Origin: a virus
Reading direction: 5' to 3' (one strand)
Length of the DNA: 22,739 bases
IMG/VR virus record: IMGVR_UViG_3300028883_000143
Location: 1-22,739 of that record
A model generated the notes under the pieces. That model made no database searches, was not told the DNA's origin, and saw only the letters and a program-made list of their open reading frames with translations. Positions within the stretch are counted from its first letter, which is position 1. Each line of letters opens with the position of its first letter. Made by a program: the position numbers and the translations under genes. Of the stretch, positions 16,897-22,601 are shown piece by piece.

Positions 16897-17802
16897 GACG
16901 TATTGCTCCTTTGCTGGGGGCGTTGCCCCGGTTGATATGGGTAATTCGAGCGTGCCTTCGGACACGCGCTCGGCCAGCTCCCGGGCGGCGGCGATGGCGG
17001 ATTGAAGATTGCCGATGCCGTCCACCAGGCCGGCGGCCAGGGCGTCGTCGCCGATGAACACGCGTCCGTCGGCCATTTCGGACTGCACCCGGGCGGCTTC
17101 CGTTCCCCGCTGGGAGGCCACCGTGCCAACGAAGATGCCGTAGATTTTGTCCAGTTCGGCCTGCAGCACGGCCCGATCTTCGTCTGACAGCGGGTTGCAG
17201 TCATTGCCCACGGCCTTGTACTTCCCGGCGGTCAGCACGGTGAACTTGACGCCGGCCCGGTCGTCCGCCCTGGAGTAGTCGGCATGCACCATGATCACGC
17301 CGATCGAGCCGACCATGGCGGTGCGCTCGGCCACGATCATGGCGGCGGCCGATGACACCCAGTAGGCGGCCGAGCACATGCAACCGTTGGCATACGCCAC
17401 CACGGGCTTTGCGGCATTTGCCGCGGAAATGACTTCGGTCAGGCCGTCCGTTCCCGATACGGTGCCGCCGGGAGAGTCCACATCCAGGACGATGGCTTCG
17501 ACGTCCGGGTCCTCACCGGCCTCGGCTATCATCGCGGCGATCTGCGCAAAGGTGTGCCCGCCCAGCAGCCAGGTGAAAAAGGACATGCGCTTGGAAAGCG
17601 GTCCGACGATAGGAACCACGGCCACACCGTCCTGGACGCGGTAGGGCCTGTCATCGGATGACCGGCCGGCGAAGATGGCGGCCGTGGCGGCCTCCGAGCC
17701 GGCGGCCTCGTCCATTCGCGTCCACATTTTCGGATCGTTTATGATGCTCTCCAGATATTCCGGGCGGATGGCCCATGGAGACCAGTTCGCATTGTCAATC
17801 AT
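16393..17802 (-). CDS. S49-family head maturation protease with scaffold domain
   Basis: This is a lambda gpC-type head protease fused to a C-terminal scaffold. From ATG 17802 the product has 469 residues. LDVDSPGGTVSG marks the ClpP/SppA-like fold, ANGCMCSAAYWVSSAA carries the likely nucleophile Ser144, and VLTAGKYKAVGND carries Lys196, 52 residues later, the spacing of the SppA Ser-Lys dyad. MVGSIGVIMVHADYS is another S49 signature. Residues from about 303 are the acidic helical scaffold. I prefer ATG 17802 (AGGAAGG upstream, 8-nt overlap with the portal stop) over TTG 17829. The protease would process portal and scaffold within the procapsid and then degrade itself. Confidence 0.92.
   Translation of the reverse strand: MIDNANWSPWAIRPEYLESIINDPKMWTRMDEAAGSEAATAAIFAGRSSDDRPYRVQDGVAVVPIVGPLSKRMSFFTWLLGGHTFAQIAAMIAEAGEDPDVEAIVLDVDSPGGTVSGTDGLTEVISAANAAKPVVAYANGCMCSAAYWVSSAAAMIVAERTAMVGSIGVIMVHADYSRADDRAGVKFTVLTAGKYKAVGNDCNPLSDEDRAVLQAELDKIYGIFVGTVASQRGTEAARVQSEMADGRVFIGDDALAAGLVDGIGNLQSAIAAARELAERVSEGTLELPISTGATPPAKEQYVMTDKANKKMIAAPATVEELAAALPELAQALRDQGAQGVDVNAAVQAETGRIMGLVEVHFGAEAAEKFTGIVTTGVTVAQYTAICGDSAPGQPQAGNIQGKDEILAALKNTGPENPGADNGTAAAGEKDFLALVNEYKAAHKCGLFDAQAAIIKAYPDAHEAYLKSVN
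16906..16911 (-). promoter_or_regulatory. Internal Shine-Dalgarno for the nested scaffold
   Basis: AAGGAG on the minus strand lies nine bases before ATG 16896, in frame within the protease gene and at the boundary of protease and scaffold domains. It is one of the better ribosome sites in the window, which suggests selection for abundant scaffold. Confidence 0.8.
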
Positions 17803-19477
17803 CGTCTTCGCCTTCCTCTGTTTCGCCAAGGTCTTTACTTCCCGTCAGGGTCGTGCCGCCAACGCCGCCCTGGGCGCCCTGAGCCGATGCACCGTCAGTC
17901 GTTTCGCTTTCTTCGTAAAGATCGTTTTCTTCAAGCAGCGCTTTTTCTTCGGCCAACTCTTCCACGTTGGCCCGGAAGTCTCCGCCGCGCTCGATGGTGG
18001 ACTGCGTGCGGGTCTTGAGCTTGGCGTCGATCAAGATCTTGTCCGCCTGCGCGGCTTTCACGGGCTCGATGTCGCCCTTTGGCGCACCGCGCCATTGCGC
18101 CCGGGCGTAGGCTTCGCGGTAGCGGTAAAAGTCCGCGCCGTAATCGATGTCGCCACGCAGCCAGGCCTCTTCCATGAGCATGGAAAATACCGGCTGCAGC
18201 GATGTGCCGGCGTGCCACTGGCGATCGGCCTCGAACACGCGCCAGGCGTCAAGCATGGCCGATCGGAATCCGGCAAAGTTGGTGCCTTCGACATCCTTGA
18301 ACATGACCACGTAGGGCAGGTTGACGGCCATGGAGATCGATTTTTTAACGGTCTTGATGAACGGCTCGAAGGTCGTGCCCGGCCTGGCCGCGGCGAGCAT
18401 GTGCGGTTTTTCGCCCGAATTGCCGTACATGATGATGCCGGGATAGGTTTCCTGGTAGCGCTGCACGCGGGAGGTGCCGTCCGAGTTTTTGTATTCGTCG
18501 GTGTGGGTAGTAAAATTGGCCGCCAGTTGGTATGGATCGCCGGACGTTTCGATAAAGTAGGCAAGCGCTGCGGTGACCACGTTGGATACGAGCTCGGCGG
18601 ACAACAGGTCGTTCATGTCCCGCAAATACTTCATGGCCGGCGCCAGCACCGGCCAGCCGCGCACCTGCTCGGGCTCTTTGGCCACGAACCCATGGATCAG
18701 ATTGAGGCGGTGCCCGCTGCGGATAGGAATGCGAACGAAGTTCTTCGATATGTCCGGAACCGATAATACCGTCGTGCCGCTTTTTTTAAACCATACGGCA
18801 ACGGCCTGGCCGTAATCGCCAAGCTCGATGCCGTCGCGCATTTTCGGGTTGGAAAGCATGTCGAGCGGCGTTTTAACCCGCAAGGGATGGATCAATTGAC
18901 ACGCCAGCAAGTACGGCCTGGACGGATCGTCTATCATGGGCAGCAGCTTGAAAAACTCTCCGTACCGCAGCAGGCTCAGTTTTTCCAGGTACTGGATCTG
19001 TCCCGCGTTCATGCGTCCGCCGGCATCCGCCCTGGGCGCCCATCGGGTGTGAACGGCCCGCATTTGGCGATGCAGCTTCCGGATGCGCTCCTTGGGCAGG
19101 CCGATGGCGTCTCGATCGATGGCCGGCACCGGGATGAGCCCGGACCCAATGACGGTGACGGCCACATTGTCGATAATGCCGGCGGCGTGCGGATCGTTGT
19201 TGGTCAGGTCGATCGAGCGCTCGACAATCGCTGTGCGCTCCAACGCTTCGCCCTGATTCGAAAACACGGCCTGCGGCCGCCAGTTCTTGAATGACCCGAT
19301 GTTTTTGGATGCTTCGCGGCGGTAGGTGTAATCGGCCGTCGATGGCGCCAGCGGCTTTCCGTTGGGGCCGTAAAGCACCGGTTTGCCGGTAATGGCCGAC
19401 ATGGCGGCCATGGCCCGCGCAAAGAGCGCCAGGTCCTGGCCTTGCCCGTTCTGGTCGTATGATGCCGATGATCTCAT
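17795..19477 (-). CDS. Portal protein (lambda gpB family)
   Basis: At 560 residues this is near lambda gpB (533). The family signature LTNNDPHAAGIIDNVAVTVI followed by GSGLIPVPAID is clear at about 92-120. Helical MAVNLPYVVMFKDVEGTNFA and FAGFRSAMLDAWRVFEADRQ lie in the stem and crown region. WLRGDIDYGADFYRYREAYA and GGDFRANVEELAEEKALLEE near the end are typical of this family. The C-terminal tail is Gly and acidic rich (TEEGEDDD) and may be trimmed by the protease as in lambda, though no site is evident. Twelve copies would form the DNA channel, docking terminase before packaging and the gpW-like protein afterwards. The ATG follows the upstream TAA directly. Confidence 0.95.
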   Translation of the reverse strand: MRSSASYDQNGQGQDLALFARAMAAMSAITGKPVLYGPNGKPLAPSTADYTYRREASKNIGSFKNWRPQAVFSNQGEALERTAIVERSIDLTNNDPHAAGIIDNVAVTVIGSGLIPVPAIDRDAIGLPKERIRKLHRQMRAVHTRWAPRADAGGRMNAGQIQYLEKLSLLRYGEFFKLLPMIDDPSRPYLLACQLIHPLRVKTPLDMLSNPKMRDGIELGDYGQAVAVWFKKSGTTVLSVPDISKNFVRIPIRSGHRLNLIHGFVAKEPEQVRGWPVLAPAMKYLRDMNDLLSAELVSNVVTAALAYFIETSGDPYQLAANFTTHTDEYKNSDGTSRVQRYQETYPGIIMYGNSGEKPHMLAAARPGTTFEPFIKTVKKSISMAVNLPYVVMFKDVEGTNFAGFRSAMLDAWRVFEADRQWHAGTSLQPVFSMLMEEAWLRGDIDYGADFYRYREAYARAQWRGAPKGDIEPVKAAQADKILIDAKLKTRTQSTIERGGDFRANVEELAEEKALLEENDLYEESETTDGASAQGAQGGVGGTTLTGSKDLGETEEGEDDD

Positions 19478-19690
19478 TTAATCCCGCTTGAACAAACCGG
19501 TGGTTACCGTCATGCCGCGCCCGTGCTCTTTGTTGTAGCGGGCGAGAAGCATCTCTTCGCGCTTGTTCAGCGCGTCCAGATCCGCCATGCGCATGCGTTT
19601 GCCCCCCACGGCCACTTCCTGGCCGCTCATCACCGCGCTGATCGCGTTTTGAACCTCCTCGAGTTGTTCCGACGTGGTCTTGACGGCCAT
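19478..19690 (-). CDS. gpW-like head-tail connector
   Basis: From the ATG at 19690 this gives 70 residues, close to lambda W (68). The helical LEEVQNAISAVMSGQEVAVG, the beta hairpin GGKRMRMADLDALNKREEML and the basic end TTGLFKRD match gpW-family joining proteins, which bind beneath the portal once DNA is packaged. A GTG at 19732 would add 14 residues encoded by a hairpin region and is unlikely to be the real start. The chosen ATG follows GGGGTTTTTTT, the right arm of a long inverted repeat, so its only Shine-Dalgarno-like bases would be paired in RNA. Expression may therefore be conditional or low. It lies directly before the portal gene as in lambda. Confidence 0.88.
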   Translation of the reverse strand: MAVKTTSEQLEEVQNAISAVMSGQEVAVGGKRMRMADLDALNKREEMLLARYNKEHGRGMTVTTGLFKRD

Positions 19691-19749
19691 AAAAAAACCC
19701 CATGCATGGTGGTGTGATTTTGTCACGTCCACAATAACATGGGGTTTTT
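19691..19749 (-). terminator. Terminator-like long inverted repeat before gpW
   Basis: AAAAACCCCATG (19693-19704) pairs perfectly with CATGGGGTTTTT (19738-19749). Inside, the minus-strand RNA can add GTGG/CCAC and GTGA/TCAC around a CAAAA loop. On the minus strand the structure ends in GGGG followed by seven Ts, and the gpW ATG comes next. The matching A-tract on the other side makes it look bidirectional. It can be an intrinsic terminator or attenuator ahead of the head genes, and it also occludes the gpW ribosome site. Confidence 0.65.
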
Positions 19750-19761
19750 ATTGTTCTGAGC

Positions 19762-19815
19762 TATCGGGTAGCTTCCAGGTACTTATCGGGTAGTTTTGAG
19801 CATGTTATAGGGTAT
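19762..19815. repeat. Three 10-bp repeats at exact 22-bp intervals
   Basis: On the plus strand TATCGGGTAG occurs at 19762-19771 and again at 19784-19793, and TATAGGGTAT (8/10 match) at 19806-19815. Starts are spaced 22 and 22 bp, about two helical turns, placing all sites on one face of DNA. Because 22 is not a multiple of three and no gene covers them, they look like protein-binding sites. They lie just after the HTH gene. Confidence 0.7.
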
Positions 19816-19824
19816 TGACATGGG

Positions 19825-20061
19825 TTATTTATCACTGGCAATATCCCGTATCCTCACACTGTCCATCGTCACCGGGGCACCGATTGTCACCTTCCTGAAA
19901 AAATCGCTGATATTCTGTCTATGGCCGTACCACCTGCCGTTGATTTTGCGCATCGGCATCCCAAGCCCGAGAAACATATAAAACTGTTCCTGGTTGATTC
20001 CAAAGGCATCGCAAACGGATTTCATGCCGATCATCAGATCATTTATATGGGATTCCGCCAC
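19825..20061 (-). CDS. Winged-HTH-like DNA-binding protein (78 aa)
   Basis: This small protein has the layout of excisionase/MerR-like (HTH_17) winged helices: MIGMKSVCDAFGINQEQFYM provides the helix-turn-helix, and GMPMRKINGRWYGHRQNISD the wing plus following helix, ending in FFRKV. Lambda Nu1 has a related domain, but here a separate terminase small subunit is already encoded upstream, so this is an additional DNA-binding protein. GGAG is spaced 6 nt from the GTG start. It sits between terminase and gpW, followed by the three 22-bp repeats that may be its targets. Roles as late-gene regulator, cos-binding factor or moron product all fit. The target is unproven. Confidence 0.7.
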   Translation of the reverse strand: MAESHINDLMIGMKSVCDAFGINQEQFYMFLGLGMPMRKINGRWYGHRQNISDFFRKVTIGAPVTMDSVRIRDIASDK

Positions 20062-20118: not shown

Positions 20119-22068
20119 TTATCTGCTGTGTAGCCACGATGGCCGCTCGAATGTTTTTTGGTCCTTCCACTTGCCCGGTGGCGTGGGTTCTTTCGACTGT
20201 ATTTGCTTTTTGACTTCCGGCCGCTTCCAGAATTTCACCCCCAGCACCTCGGCAGCAAGACGATTGAGCACCGAACAATCCCACCCATGGTTGTCTTTCC
20301 CTTCCGGGCACTCCCATTTGCCAGACTCACCGATAAACTCAGCCGACATTTGACTCGCCCAGGCATCGGTCAGCTCAGAATGAAACCGCCAGGCCCCGGG
20401 ATCCGCCAGCTTGACACCCAGTCTTCTAGACAGATCATTTTTAAAAAAATTGGTGTCGAACCGGATCAGCTTAAGCCCTCCAGGAATTGGCTTTTTGCCG
20501 CCCGGGTAAAAATCGATGCTGCTCCAGGAAAAGGGCTGAGCCAGGGTGTCCTTCCCCTGGGTGGCAAAGATCTTGGGTCCATGGCGCCGGCAAAAATCGT
20601 ACACATCGGCCGTGCGATGGCCCATGGCATCCTGCAAGGCCATCCGGACGAAATAGAGATTGCCGTCCGGATCTCGATACTCACTGTTCCAAAGAATTTC
20701 CTCGAGATCGCTAAAAGTGAGGACCTCGCCGGCACGTATCTGCCACGAGTCCATGGAAGGGCCCCACCCCCAGGCCCTGATCTCGTACCAGAACGAATAG
20801 TCCTGGGTGTCGATCCCGGCCGTCAAACACGATACCCGCCCGCCACCTGGGACCATCCCTTCGGGCCGCTCGTCGCACAATTCGAAAATCGTATCGACCT
20901 TGCGCTCCTGAGTCCGGATGATCCACGGCTTCGCCTCATAGTCGTTTTTGTACTTTTTCAGCTTGGTCAGATCATTTAAGCCCAGTAAAAAGGCCGCTGC
21001 GCACTCGGACAGCGACACGAAGGGCGATACCCACGCCGGCAGATGAAACCCGATCACCCTTGGTTTGACCGACTTTAGACACGCCTCGAGGGCCATGCCG
21101 GTATCTCGATCGCGCCACTGCCCCATGCGAACGGCCATGTTGCGGGCCGAATCGCTCCAGGGTTCGTGACACTTTTCACATTCGTAGTAGGCCAACTTGC
21201 GGGTGTGCACCTCTTTGGGGTCGGCCTTGGATCCGCCGGGCCACTTGATGCCACGACCCTCTTTGCCGTCTCCCATCACCATGAGCTGGGTGGCCGAGCA
21301 GTGGGGGCATCTCACGTGATAGACGAACACCAGCTCGCACTCTTCGGTCAGGGCTCGCCAGATCGGGCCGGTCTCGATGGTGGGTGTCGACACCCGCCAT
21401 AATTTCCGCATGTGGGCGAAATTTCTTGCCCGGTTGCGCAACAGGTCCACCGGGCCCGACTCTTTTTTGCCCACCGTGACCGGGAACTTATCCTCTTCAT
21501 CGGCTACCCCATACGGCGCCGGCCGGTTGGCCAAACGGGCCGCCGAGTTGGCCCAGGCCATGTAGATGATCATGTGGCGCAGCTTGATCTTCACGGCGCC
21601 CTCGTCGTCGGTCTTGTTGGTCTTAAACGTGCGCAACAACGGCGAAGCGTTGATCATGGCCAATAAGCGATCCTTGGAGTTGTCCTTGGAGGTCACCTCA
21701 TCGGGATAGGTGACGATGGCATTGCCCGGCGCCCGGTCAGCGGCATAGGCCAGGCAGTTGTTGACGATGGTGGTCTTGCTGGTCTGAGACGGCCAGCACA
21801 TCACGATCTCTTCCACGCCCGGGAAAAAGGAGGCATCCATCACCCCGGCCGCATAGGGCACCATGGAGCAACGGTAAGGGCCTGGCACCGGAGAGTCCGA
21901 CGGCAGCACGATGTTCTTTTCCGTCCACTCGGAGGGGCGCATCGGCTTTTTACGACGCAGCACCTTGCGCTCGTCCCTGGACCACCTGGCCGAGAGCACC
22001 GTGCCGGCACCCGGCCGCACCTCTTCGGGAAACCATCCCGGATCGACGGGAATAGGGCAGGGCATCAT
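20119..22068 (-). CDS. Terminase large subunit (GpA family)
   Basis: This 649-residue packaging motor and nuclease matches lambda gpA (641). SEWTEKNIVLPSDSPVPGPY is the family N terminus. MCWPSQTSKTTIVNN (about 90-104) is the deviant Walker A typical of GpA members, and PYGVADEEDKFP (185-196) the Walker B. A zinc ribbon of Cys254/Cys257 (RCPHCS) and Cys297/Cys300 (ECEKCH) follows. The nuclease domain begins with LTAGIDTQDYSF (Asp420), with Asp597 in NHGWDCSVLNR another probable metal ligand. It cuts concatemers at cos and pumps DNA into the portal. The ATGA overlap with the small subunit couples their synthesis. Confidence 0.96.
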   Translation of the reverse strand: MMPCPIPVDPGWFPEEVRPGAGTVLSARWSRDERKVLRRKKPMRPSEWTEKNIVLPSDSPVPGPYRCSMVPYAAGVMDASFFPGVEEIVMCWPSQTSKTTIVNNCLAYAADRAPGNAIVTYPDEVTSKDNSKDRLLAMINASPLLRTFKTNKTDDEGAVKIKLRHMIIYMAWANSAARLANRPAPYGVADEEDKFPVTVGKKESGPVDLLRNRARNFAHMRKLWRVSTPTIETGPIWRALTEECELVFVYHVRCPHCSATQLMVMGDGKEGRGIKWPGGSKADPKEVHTRKLAYYECEKCHEPWSDSARNMAVRMGQWRDRDTGMALEACLKSVKPRVIGFHLPAWVSPFVSLSECAAAFLLGLNDLTKLKKYKNDYEAKPWIIRTQERKVDTIFELCDERPEGMVPGGGRVSCLTAGIDTQDYSFWYEIRAWGWGPSMDSWQIRAGEVLTFSDLEEILWNSEYRDPDGNLYFVRMALQDAMGHRTADVYDFCRRHGPKIFATQGKDTLAQPFSWSSIDFYPGGKKPIPGGLKLIRFDTNFFKNDLSRRLGVKLADPGAWRFHSELTDAWASQMSAEFIGESGKWECPEGKDNHGWDCSVLNRLAAEVLGVKFWKRPEVKKQIQSKEPTPPGKWKDQKTFERPSWLHSR

Positions 22069-22601
22069 TGCTTTCGTACCTCCACCTTGATCTCTTCCAT
22101 GTTGCCAAACTCACCCAAAAGCAAGTCCACTTCGGCGTAGACCAGGTTGCAGAACATGCTTTCTTTTTTTGAATCGCCGCCGGTCTTGTGGATCCAGTCG
22201 GCGGCGTTGACCCGCACCACATTTTTGATGCCCGCCTCCAAGGCCGCCAGTTTGATGGCAACCTGTAGGCGAACGTCTTCTTTCAGAATGTACTTGCCGC
22301 GCTCCTTATCCAGTTCGAAGCGCAGCTTTTCGGTCTGCACCTCGAGCTTTTCGATCTCTTTTTTCGATCGCACGCCGGCGTACTGGTCGATCTCTGCGAC
22401 GGCATCGCTCACTTTGCCCAGTTCGGACCGCACGGCATAGGCCAGGGCGTCGTCTTCGCTGATCGTGCCGTTTTCTCCGCAGCGCAAAAGCCCCTTTCGT
22501 TTGTCCTGATAGACCTTGGACTTTTCGACCCTGTATCCTTTGCCTTTAAGGAAGCGAATCACGGCCGCGATGCTTTTGAATGTCTGCTTTTCTTCTGGCA
22601 T
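22065..22601 (-). CDS. Terminase small subunit (Nu1-like)
   Basis: This 178-residue protein begins with a winged-helix-like segment (FKSIAAVIRFLKGKGYRVEK, SKVYQDKRKGLL) that would bind the packaging site, then a long coiled helix rich in Lys and Glu (KKEIEKLEVQTEKLRFELDK, ERGKYILKEDVRLQVAIKLA) used for oligomerisation. The C-terminal EFGNMEEIKVEVRKQ would contact the large subunit. Length and layout equal lambda Nu1 (181). It is the first gene of the late block. Only a weak AAAGA precedes the ATG at 22601, so initiation may be modest. The overlap with the large subunit gene strongly supports the pairing. Confidence 0.88.
   Translation of the reverse strand: MPEEKQTFKSIAAVIRFLKGKGYRVEKSKVYQDKRKGLLRCGENGTISEDDALAYAVRSELGKVSDAVAEIDQYAGVRSKKEIEKLEVQTEKLRFELDKERGKYILKEDVRLQVAIKLAALEAGIKNVVRVNAADWIHKTGGDSKKESMFCNLVYAEVDLLLGEFGNMEEIKVEVRKQ

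Follow-up and report, generated by a model that had tools for sequence, protein, structure and literature searches.

A virus record of IMG/VR, 22,739 bases long and analysed here as a whole (the window), carries between its packaging and head genes a compact element in which p78, a gene for a small protein with a predicted winged helix-turn-helix (wHTH) fold, is followed by helically phased direct repeats and a conserved dyad. This is one case of a conserved module, the layout of which is common to about 50 distinct elements in environmental phages of a little-known group, and it has the appearance of an exchangeable control module by which head genes are turned on. From the comparison of these sequences, we propose that a complex of p78 with the repeat array most likely switches the head/tail operon, a reading to which we give a probability of about 50%. 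The analysis established the anatomy of the element, a phasing of its repeats at 11 and 22 bp, the wHTH fold as a prediction for p78 and the co-variation of p78 with its array.

Along the minus strand, TerS and TerL come first, followed by p78, a TGTCAA box, three 10-bp repeats, the dyad, gpW and the portal gene (Table 1). The remaining head and tail genes follow the portal in the same direction, and the element heads a one-way operon. The coordinates and the 22-bp spacing given in the initial annotation were exact; the box beside the array was absent from it.

Table 1. Element and flanking genes in the window
Feature	Position	Strand	Basis
TerS, Nu1-like, weak match, separate from p78	22065..22601	-	phrog_57 E=0.035; relative L002 3e-12
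TerL, lambda gpA type, upstream of p78	20119..22068	-	GpA_ATPase 6e-53, GpA_nuclease 6e-53
p78, stand-alone predicted winged-HTH protein, 78 aa, GTG start	19825..20061	-	ORF; directly after TerL
TGTCAA box, just past p78 stop codon	19815..19820	-	sequence; kept in relatives
Array site 1, TACCCTATAA (minus strand)	19805..19814	-	sequence + phasing test
Array site 2, TACCCGATAA	19783..19792	-	sequence + phasing test
Array site 3, TACCCGATAG	19761..19770	-	sequence + phasing test
Dyad left half, AAAACCCCATGTTATTGTG; includes extended -10-like TGnTATnGT	19730..19748	-	half-site conserved in 47 viral stretches
Dyad right half, CACCATGCATGGGG + run of seven T; probable gpW ribosome-binding site inside	19691..19711	-	
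gpW-type head-tail joining protein, first gene past element	19478..19690 (ATG 19690)	-	phrog_118 3e-9
Portal, next head-operon gene	17795..19477	-	Phage_portal_2 2e-68

The p78 sequence had no match of its own in Pfam, NCBIfam or PDB, and a direct search found no close relatives in IMG/VR or among GenBank phages. Its relatives were traced via their TerL neighbour and not via the p78 sequence, and a profile built from eight of them collected 87 ORFs, about 55 of them distinct and nearly all in the slot after TerL. The AlphaFold2 model obtained from a 52-member alignment has the strand-helix-helix-strand-strand-helix order of a winged HTH (pLDDT about 90 for residues 11-60, mean 76.9), as the initial annotation had proposed, and p78 is predicted to be a small wHTH protein. 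Foldseek E-values for this model were weak. With VIA-align, in which Z values below 8 can reflect just a common arrangement, so that such matches support the fold class and not a function, DNA-binding domains of packaging proteins and excisionases tied at the top (7lwr, Z 6.7, rmsd 1.5 over 51 residues; 6hn7_B, 6.7; 2kvv, 6.1; 8c3t, 5.9), with RdfS (5.5), RacA (5.2), BldC (4.9) and Pukovnik Xis (4.9) below them. The winged-HTH fold of the MerR/excisionase kind was recognizable in the model (2kvv, 8c3t, 8dgl and 4j2n, Z 4.9-6.1).

The three sites of the window (CTATCGGGTA, TTATCGGGTA and TTATAGGGTA, starting at 19761, 19783 and 19805) are weak evidence by themselves: the lag of 22 bp gave p=0.003 for this array alone, which is the floor of the 300 dinucleotide shuffles used, and chance repeats beside an unrelated gene could be invoked. 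However, when self-similarity was summed over 45 distinct arrays, picked by their flanking motifs and not by their repetitiveness, it exceeded that of dinucleotide shuffles with z=23.4 at a lag of 11 bp, z=15.9 at 22 bp and z=8.6 at 33 bp, and 38 of the 45 arrays were individually significant (p<0.05). Control coding DNA gave small codon-type peaks only, at 18, 21, 27 and 39 bp (z<=4.5). Such phasing across arrays (z=23), together with the co-occurrence and co-variation described below, makes coincidence extremely improbable. The repeat unit differs widely between phages (for instance, L134 has five copies of TTGTCCCTGAA, and L056 three copies of AAGCTATCTATTA at 22 bp), and repeat number also varies from phage to phage. 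Over the whole window, sites resembling TTATCGGGTA with up to two mismatches number 24 versus 10.5 in shuffles, a twofold excess, and the three at 19761-19814 alone share a register. In a separate branch (L002:3610-3700 and L074:6210-6300), the repeats are tandem and 9 bp long, and a GGCCG/CGGCC inverted repeat covers the start of gpW; in L002, an HTH_17 protein follows TerL.

The pattern AAAACCCCATGWTATNGTG has matches in 47 viral stretches, and in the collected loci it gave 105 matches with up to three mismatches, versus 2 for the reversed pattern. A scan with the right-half pattern was too strict, and its looser version returned true elements along with chance matches. The TGTCAA box is found in 49 distinct elements; in nearly all, 69-94 bp separate it from the dyad downstream, in steps of about 11 bp. 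In elements with sufficiently long flanks, p78 and TerL are on the upstream side and head genes on the downstream side, with the exception of L098, L120 and L122, in which the 2-4 kb upstream of the element hold cargo and no p78 was seen. In L098:1-4274 (reverse complement of the locus), genes that appear host-like by eye (PAS-domain proteins, an IS200-type transposase) stand in place of TerL and p78, for which a prophage edge and a chimeric contig are both possible. The distance from TerL to the portal gene is about 600-3,700 bp in the lineage with p78 and the element; gpW abuts TerL in GenBank relatives such as Paenibacillus phage Pd_22F and Rhodobacter phage RcKemmy. Searches of GenBank phages with the consensus element and three other family members found no relative in the same gene context, and Rfam gave no match. 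A single exact match among 395 host genomes of G021's phylum was rejected as an element, as its context does not fit. In six phages (L021, L027, L040, L086, L125 and L131), a longer first head gene of about 200 aa replaces gpW; the slot is kept in all six, and the dyad in some.

The co-occurrence of the parts was assessed in 34 distinct phages chosen by TerL alone, with no selection on the element. The dyad is present in 16 and absent from 18 of them, and p78 accompanies it in all 16, versus 4 of the 18 phages without a dyad (Fisher p=2e-6, relatedness not corrected for). For L030, one of the 16, a coordinate cut-off had hidden the gene from the scoring that detected it in the other 15. A significant phased array was detected in 15 of the 20 phages with p78 and in 2 of the 14 without it (p=0.0013), some misses being due to a longer first head gene that pushes the array outside the tested window. 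Gene and repeats, the separation of which in relatives had been named in the initial annotation as evidence against their connection, are mostly found together. By contrast, its suggestion that p78 might be a moron was not supported: with a presence in 20 of the 34 phages and in every dyad carrier, the gene is not sporadic but a near-constant part of the dyad-bearing lineage, and the true morons adjoin it. TerL and portal did not differ as predictors of the dyad.

The gene-repeat link, formerly drawn from proximity only, is now well supported by the finding that repeat sequence follows the wHTH protein. Array similarity correlates with p78 identity (r=0.53), with a sharp rise above 55% identity. 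In partial Mantel tests, which leave some shared ancestry in, the correlation stayed at 0.32-0.55 (p<=0.0005) when TerL, TerS, gpW or portal was controlled for. TerS retained a small partial correlation (0.15-0.19), and gpW had no significant partial effect, despite a distance to the array of no more than about 60 bp in most phages. The association persisted (0.46-0.48) when p78 was at least 300 bp from the array and gpW was the nearer gene, and the repeats track the wHTH protein rather than TerL, TerS, gpW or portal even with the gene 300-2,300 bp away. The most telling evidence comes from pairs of phages in which the proteins disagree. Arrays were alike in 12 of 15 pairs (80%) with TerL below 60% and p78 at least 55% identical, and in none of 10 with TerL at least 60% and p78 below 40%; the corresponding counts for TerS were 6 of 6 and 0 of 4. 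For example, L130 and L119 have TerL proteins 82% identical, p78 proteins 31% identical and unrelated arrays, whereas L130 and L004 (TerL 38%, p78 55%) have similar arrays. In all these comparisons the phages are not independent, the thresholds were set after the data had been seen and the array score is simple and ungapped; exchange as one block could also partly account for the co-variation of neighbouring parts. Taken as indirect evidence, they argue strongly that p78 and its array are a cognate pair.

Downstream of the array, hairpin arms at 19693-19704 and 19738-19749 (RNA fold z=-4.65) limit a structure that ends at the gpW start codon, the inverted repeat as a whole running from 19748 to 19691. 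A run of T is present in 24 of 31 elements, gpW starts 4-8 nt past a run of G in most, and the inner loop is self-complementary beyond chance (combined Z=-8.7). All this would suit a hairpin at the RNA level that blocks transcripts coming from the packaging operon and masks the ribosome-binding site of gpW, with the repeats being incidental. However, the mismatches in the stem show no excess of G-U, with 32 G-U versus 29 A-C (p=2e-8 against an assumed 5:1), and this lack of preference favours a symmetric site at the DNA level rather than a stem in RNA; equal counts would also be expected from a hairpin that acts on both strands. Moreover, the conservation of sequence and of span (45-48 bp in 29 of 31 elements) is unneeded for a terminator, and the phased arrays and p78 would stay unexplained. 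We therefore regard the RNA reading as improbable. The terminator-like hairpin of the initial annotation is real as a hairpin, but no terminator was found in a scan of the window, in which the loop is too long for a simple scan, and the mismatches in relatives behave as those of a DNA dyad.

No other non-coding DNA is as conserved across the genomes as the left half of the dyad: its 13-mers are the only ones common to four of five diverged genomes. This, the single copy of the element in the near-complete genomes that carry it, and a fixed span without G-U bias, which indicates that the dyad acts at the level of DNA, would also fit a packaging site, where p78 would be a free-standing TerS-type DNA-binding domain on a cosB-like array and the dyad a cosN cut by TerL. 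The best structural matches (Z 6.2-6.7) include a packaging-motor protein (7lwr, 7lxs) and 6hn7_B, from the entry of the lambda TerS N-terminal domain with RppC, and TerS abuts the upstream gene in most relatives, so that the usual cos gap is missing there. Phages lambda and 21 have a common cosN with different cosB (PMC4669245), and in P2 and P4 cos has defence genes beside it (PMC9122126). However, a cosN should be kept wherever the cutting domain of TerL is kept, and L030 and L031, with TerL proteins 85% identical and nuclease domains almost identical, differ in that only L030 has the dyad; none was seen within three mismatches in the 21.9-kb contig of L031, a fragment that may be incomplete. 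Nine other contigs with a related TerL have no dyad within two mismatches, and the array does not follow TerS as a cosB would. Lambda-type TerS joins its wHTH to an oligomerisation and TerL-binding part, whereas the ordered part of the p78 model stops after the wHTH, with no TerL-binding part, and the phage has a separate TerS. Contigs continue across the site, and no contig end was observed in it. One contig (L119) seemed to end in the dyad and was dismissed: this end is an artificial cut of the locus and no virion-end signal. The cosB-like role envisaged in the initial annotation is thus weakened, the dyad not being tied to TerL nor the array to TerS, and we consider a packaging site, the main rival reading, unlikely. 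It is quite unlikely that p78, array and dyad form a swappable cassette setting packaging specificity apart from TerS; if they did, cos recognition could be exchanged between phages without a change of terminase.

A further rival reading is a site for integration, excision or replication, with p78 acting as an excisionase-type factor at att or an origin, or a recombination hotspot for cargo. Six of the 52 p78 members match phrog_66 (excisionase and transcriptional regulator) and nine match HTH_17, the p78 of the window matching neither; the spacing is iteron-like, and variable cargo lies alongside. Against this, the element always stands directly before head genes, a place to which excision factors are not normally tied, and GC skew does not reverse at the site, on which ground a replication origin was rejected. 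A role of this kind is accordingly improbable too.

We favour control of the head/tail operon by p78. The protein would bind the adjoining helically phased direct repeats, probably as one monomer per turn, head to tail, in the manner of Apl, Xis, Cox and BldC. The repeats sit just upstream of the dyad at the operon start, and we infer that p78 forms a filament on them which activates or represses a promoter, the -10-like element of which would be the left half of the dyad (TGnTATrGT across relatives). As p78 follows TerS and TerL in one row of genes, it would couple terminase expression to the onset of head genes. In four phages, a strong terminator lies 8-49 bp before the box (0.1 expected), and the head genes there would need either a promoter within the element or antitermination; these carriers are a minority (4 of 44), and antitermination of the lambda type could read through the four terminators. 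A sigma-70 scan of the window found no promoter, because there is no -35, and the -10-like hexamer has a conserved G as its fifth base, which is atypical of sigma-70 promoters. Two phages with p78 but no dyad, L031 and L094, show TACAAT in the equivalent position, 7 bases beyond an A-run; this was read by eye, without statistics. A promoter alone fails to explain the AAAACCCC block, the symmetry of the dyad and its constant span of 45-48 bp. A leftward promoter from the complement of the box, TTGACA, was rejected as no -10 was seen by eye at the right distance.

The initial annotation knew of no phage system with this arrangement, which holds for its location: in the literature, of which our coverage was partial, we found none at a head operon. 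The geometry of the repeats, however, is of a known type, since wHTH proteins are known to bind direct repeats spaced by one turn (PMC7498355, PMC11963761, PMC5859096). The sites of recombination directionality factors (RDFs) are built in this way, with 10-11 bp in Apl, which also regulates promoters (PMC7498355). Phage 186 Apl, lambda Xis and P2 Cox are small wHTH proteins like p78, and the peaks at 11, 22 and 33 bp correspond to the same arrangement of direct repeats about one helical turn apart, here with putative binding. The p78 array differs in lying at the head operon and not at att or pR-pL, no connection with an integrase was noticed, and the p78 of the window has no significant sequence match to the Apl, Xis and Cox families. 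BldC, a wHTH-only protein of 68 residues that binds variable numbers of direct repeats (PMC5859096), resembles p78 in architecture, size and variable repeat number; its repeats are chromosomal and of 9 bp, whereas those of p78 are of 11 or 22 bp, phage-borne and beside a dyad. The TerS domain of lambda-type phages with cosB, and the Rpp proteins of PICI, belong to the same fold class, and their recognition sites likewise differ between phages with matching proteins (PMC4669245, PMC6739421). Unlike in those systems, p78 is separate from TerS and the dyad is not tied to TerL; cosB has three R sites, one of them inverted, where the p78 array has many direct repeats. If p78 does switch the head genes, the element would be a late-gene control module of a type for which we found no description among lambda-like head operons. 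The wHTH proteins with their matching phased arrays, dozens of natural pairs in all, also offer a data set on the recognition of direct repeats by filament-forming wHTH proteins.

Variable cargo, including anti-phage genes, occupies the slot between p78 (or TerL) and the array, and this slot marks a position for such genes in environmental phages. The cargo comprises DarT and DarG (E 3e-51 and 3.5e-139), SoFic (5e-50), a GNAT-like pair recognized by eye only, an IrrE-type peptidase, a TIR-like protein, Bro-N and a Dam-type methylase (L122:100-1708, L120:613-1866, L004:2654-3353, L035:6963-7466, L088:6010-6948, L083:7387-8232 and L021:6141-6659). The defence hotspot next to cos in P2 and P4 similarly has variable anti-phage cargo at a fixed position (PMC9122126), although in a different phage lineage, the cargo here lying between p78 and the array. 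Directly upstream of TerL, L054:1991-2953 and L072:2901-3902 carry tyrosine-recombinase-like ORFs, which by eye resemble integrases of the integron type.
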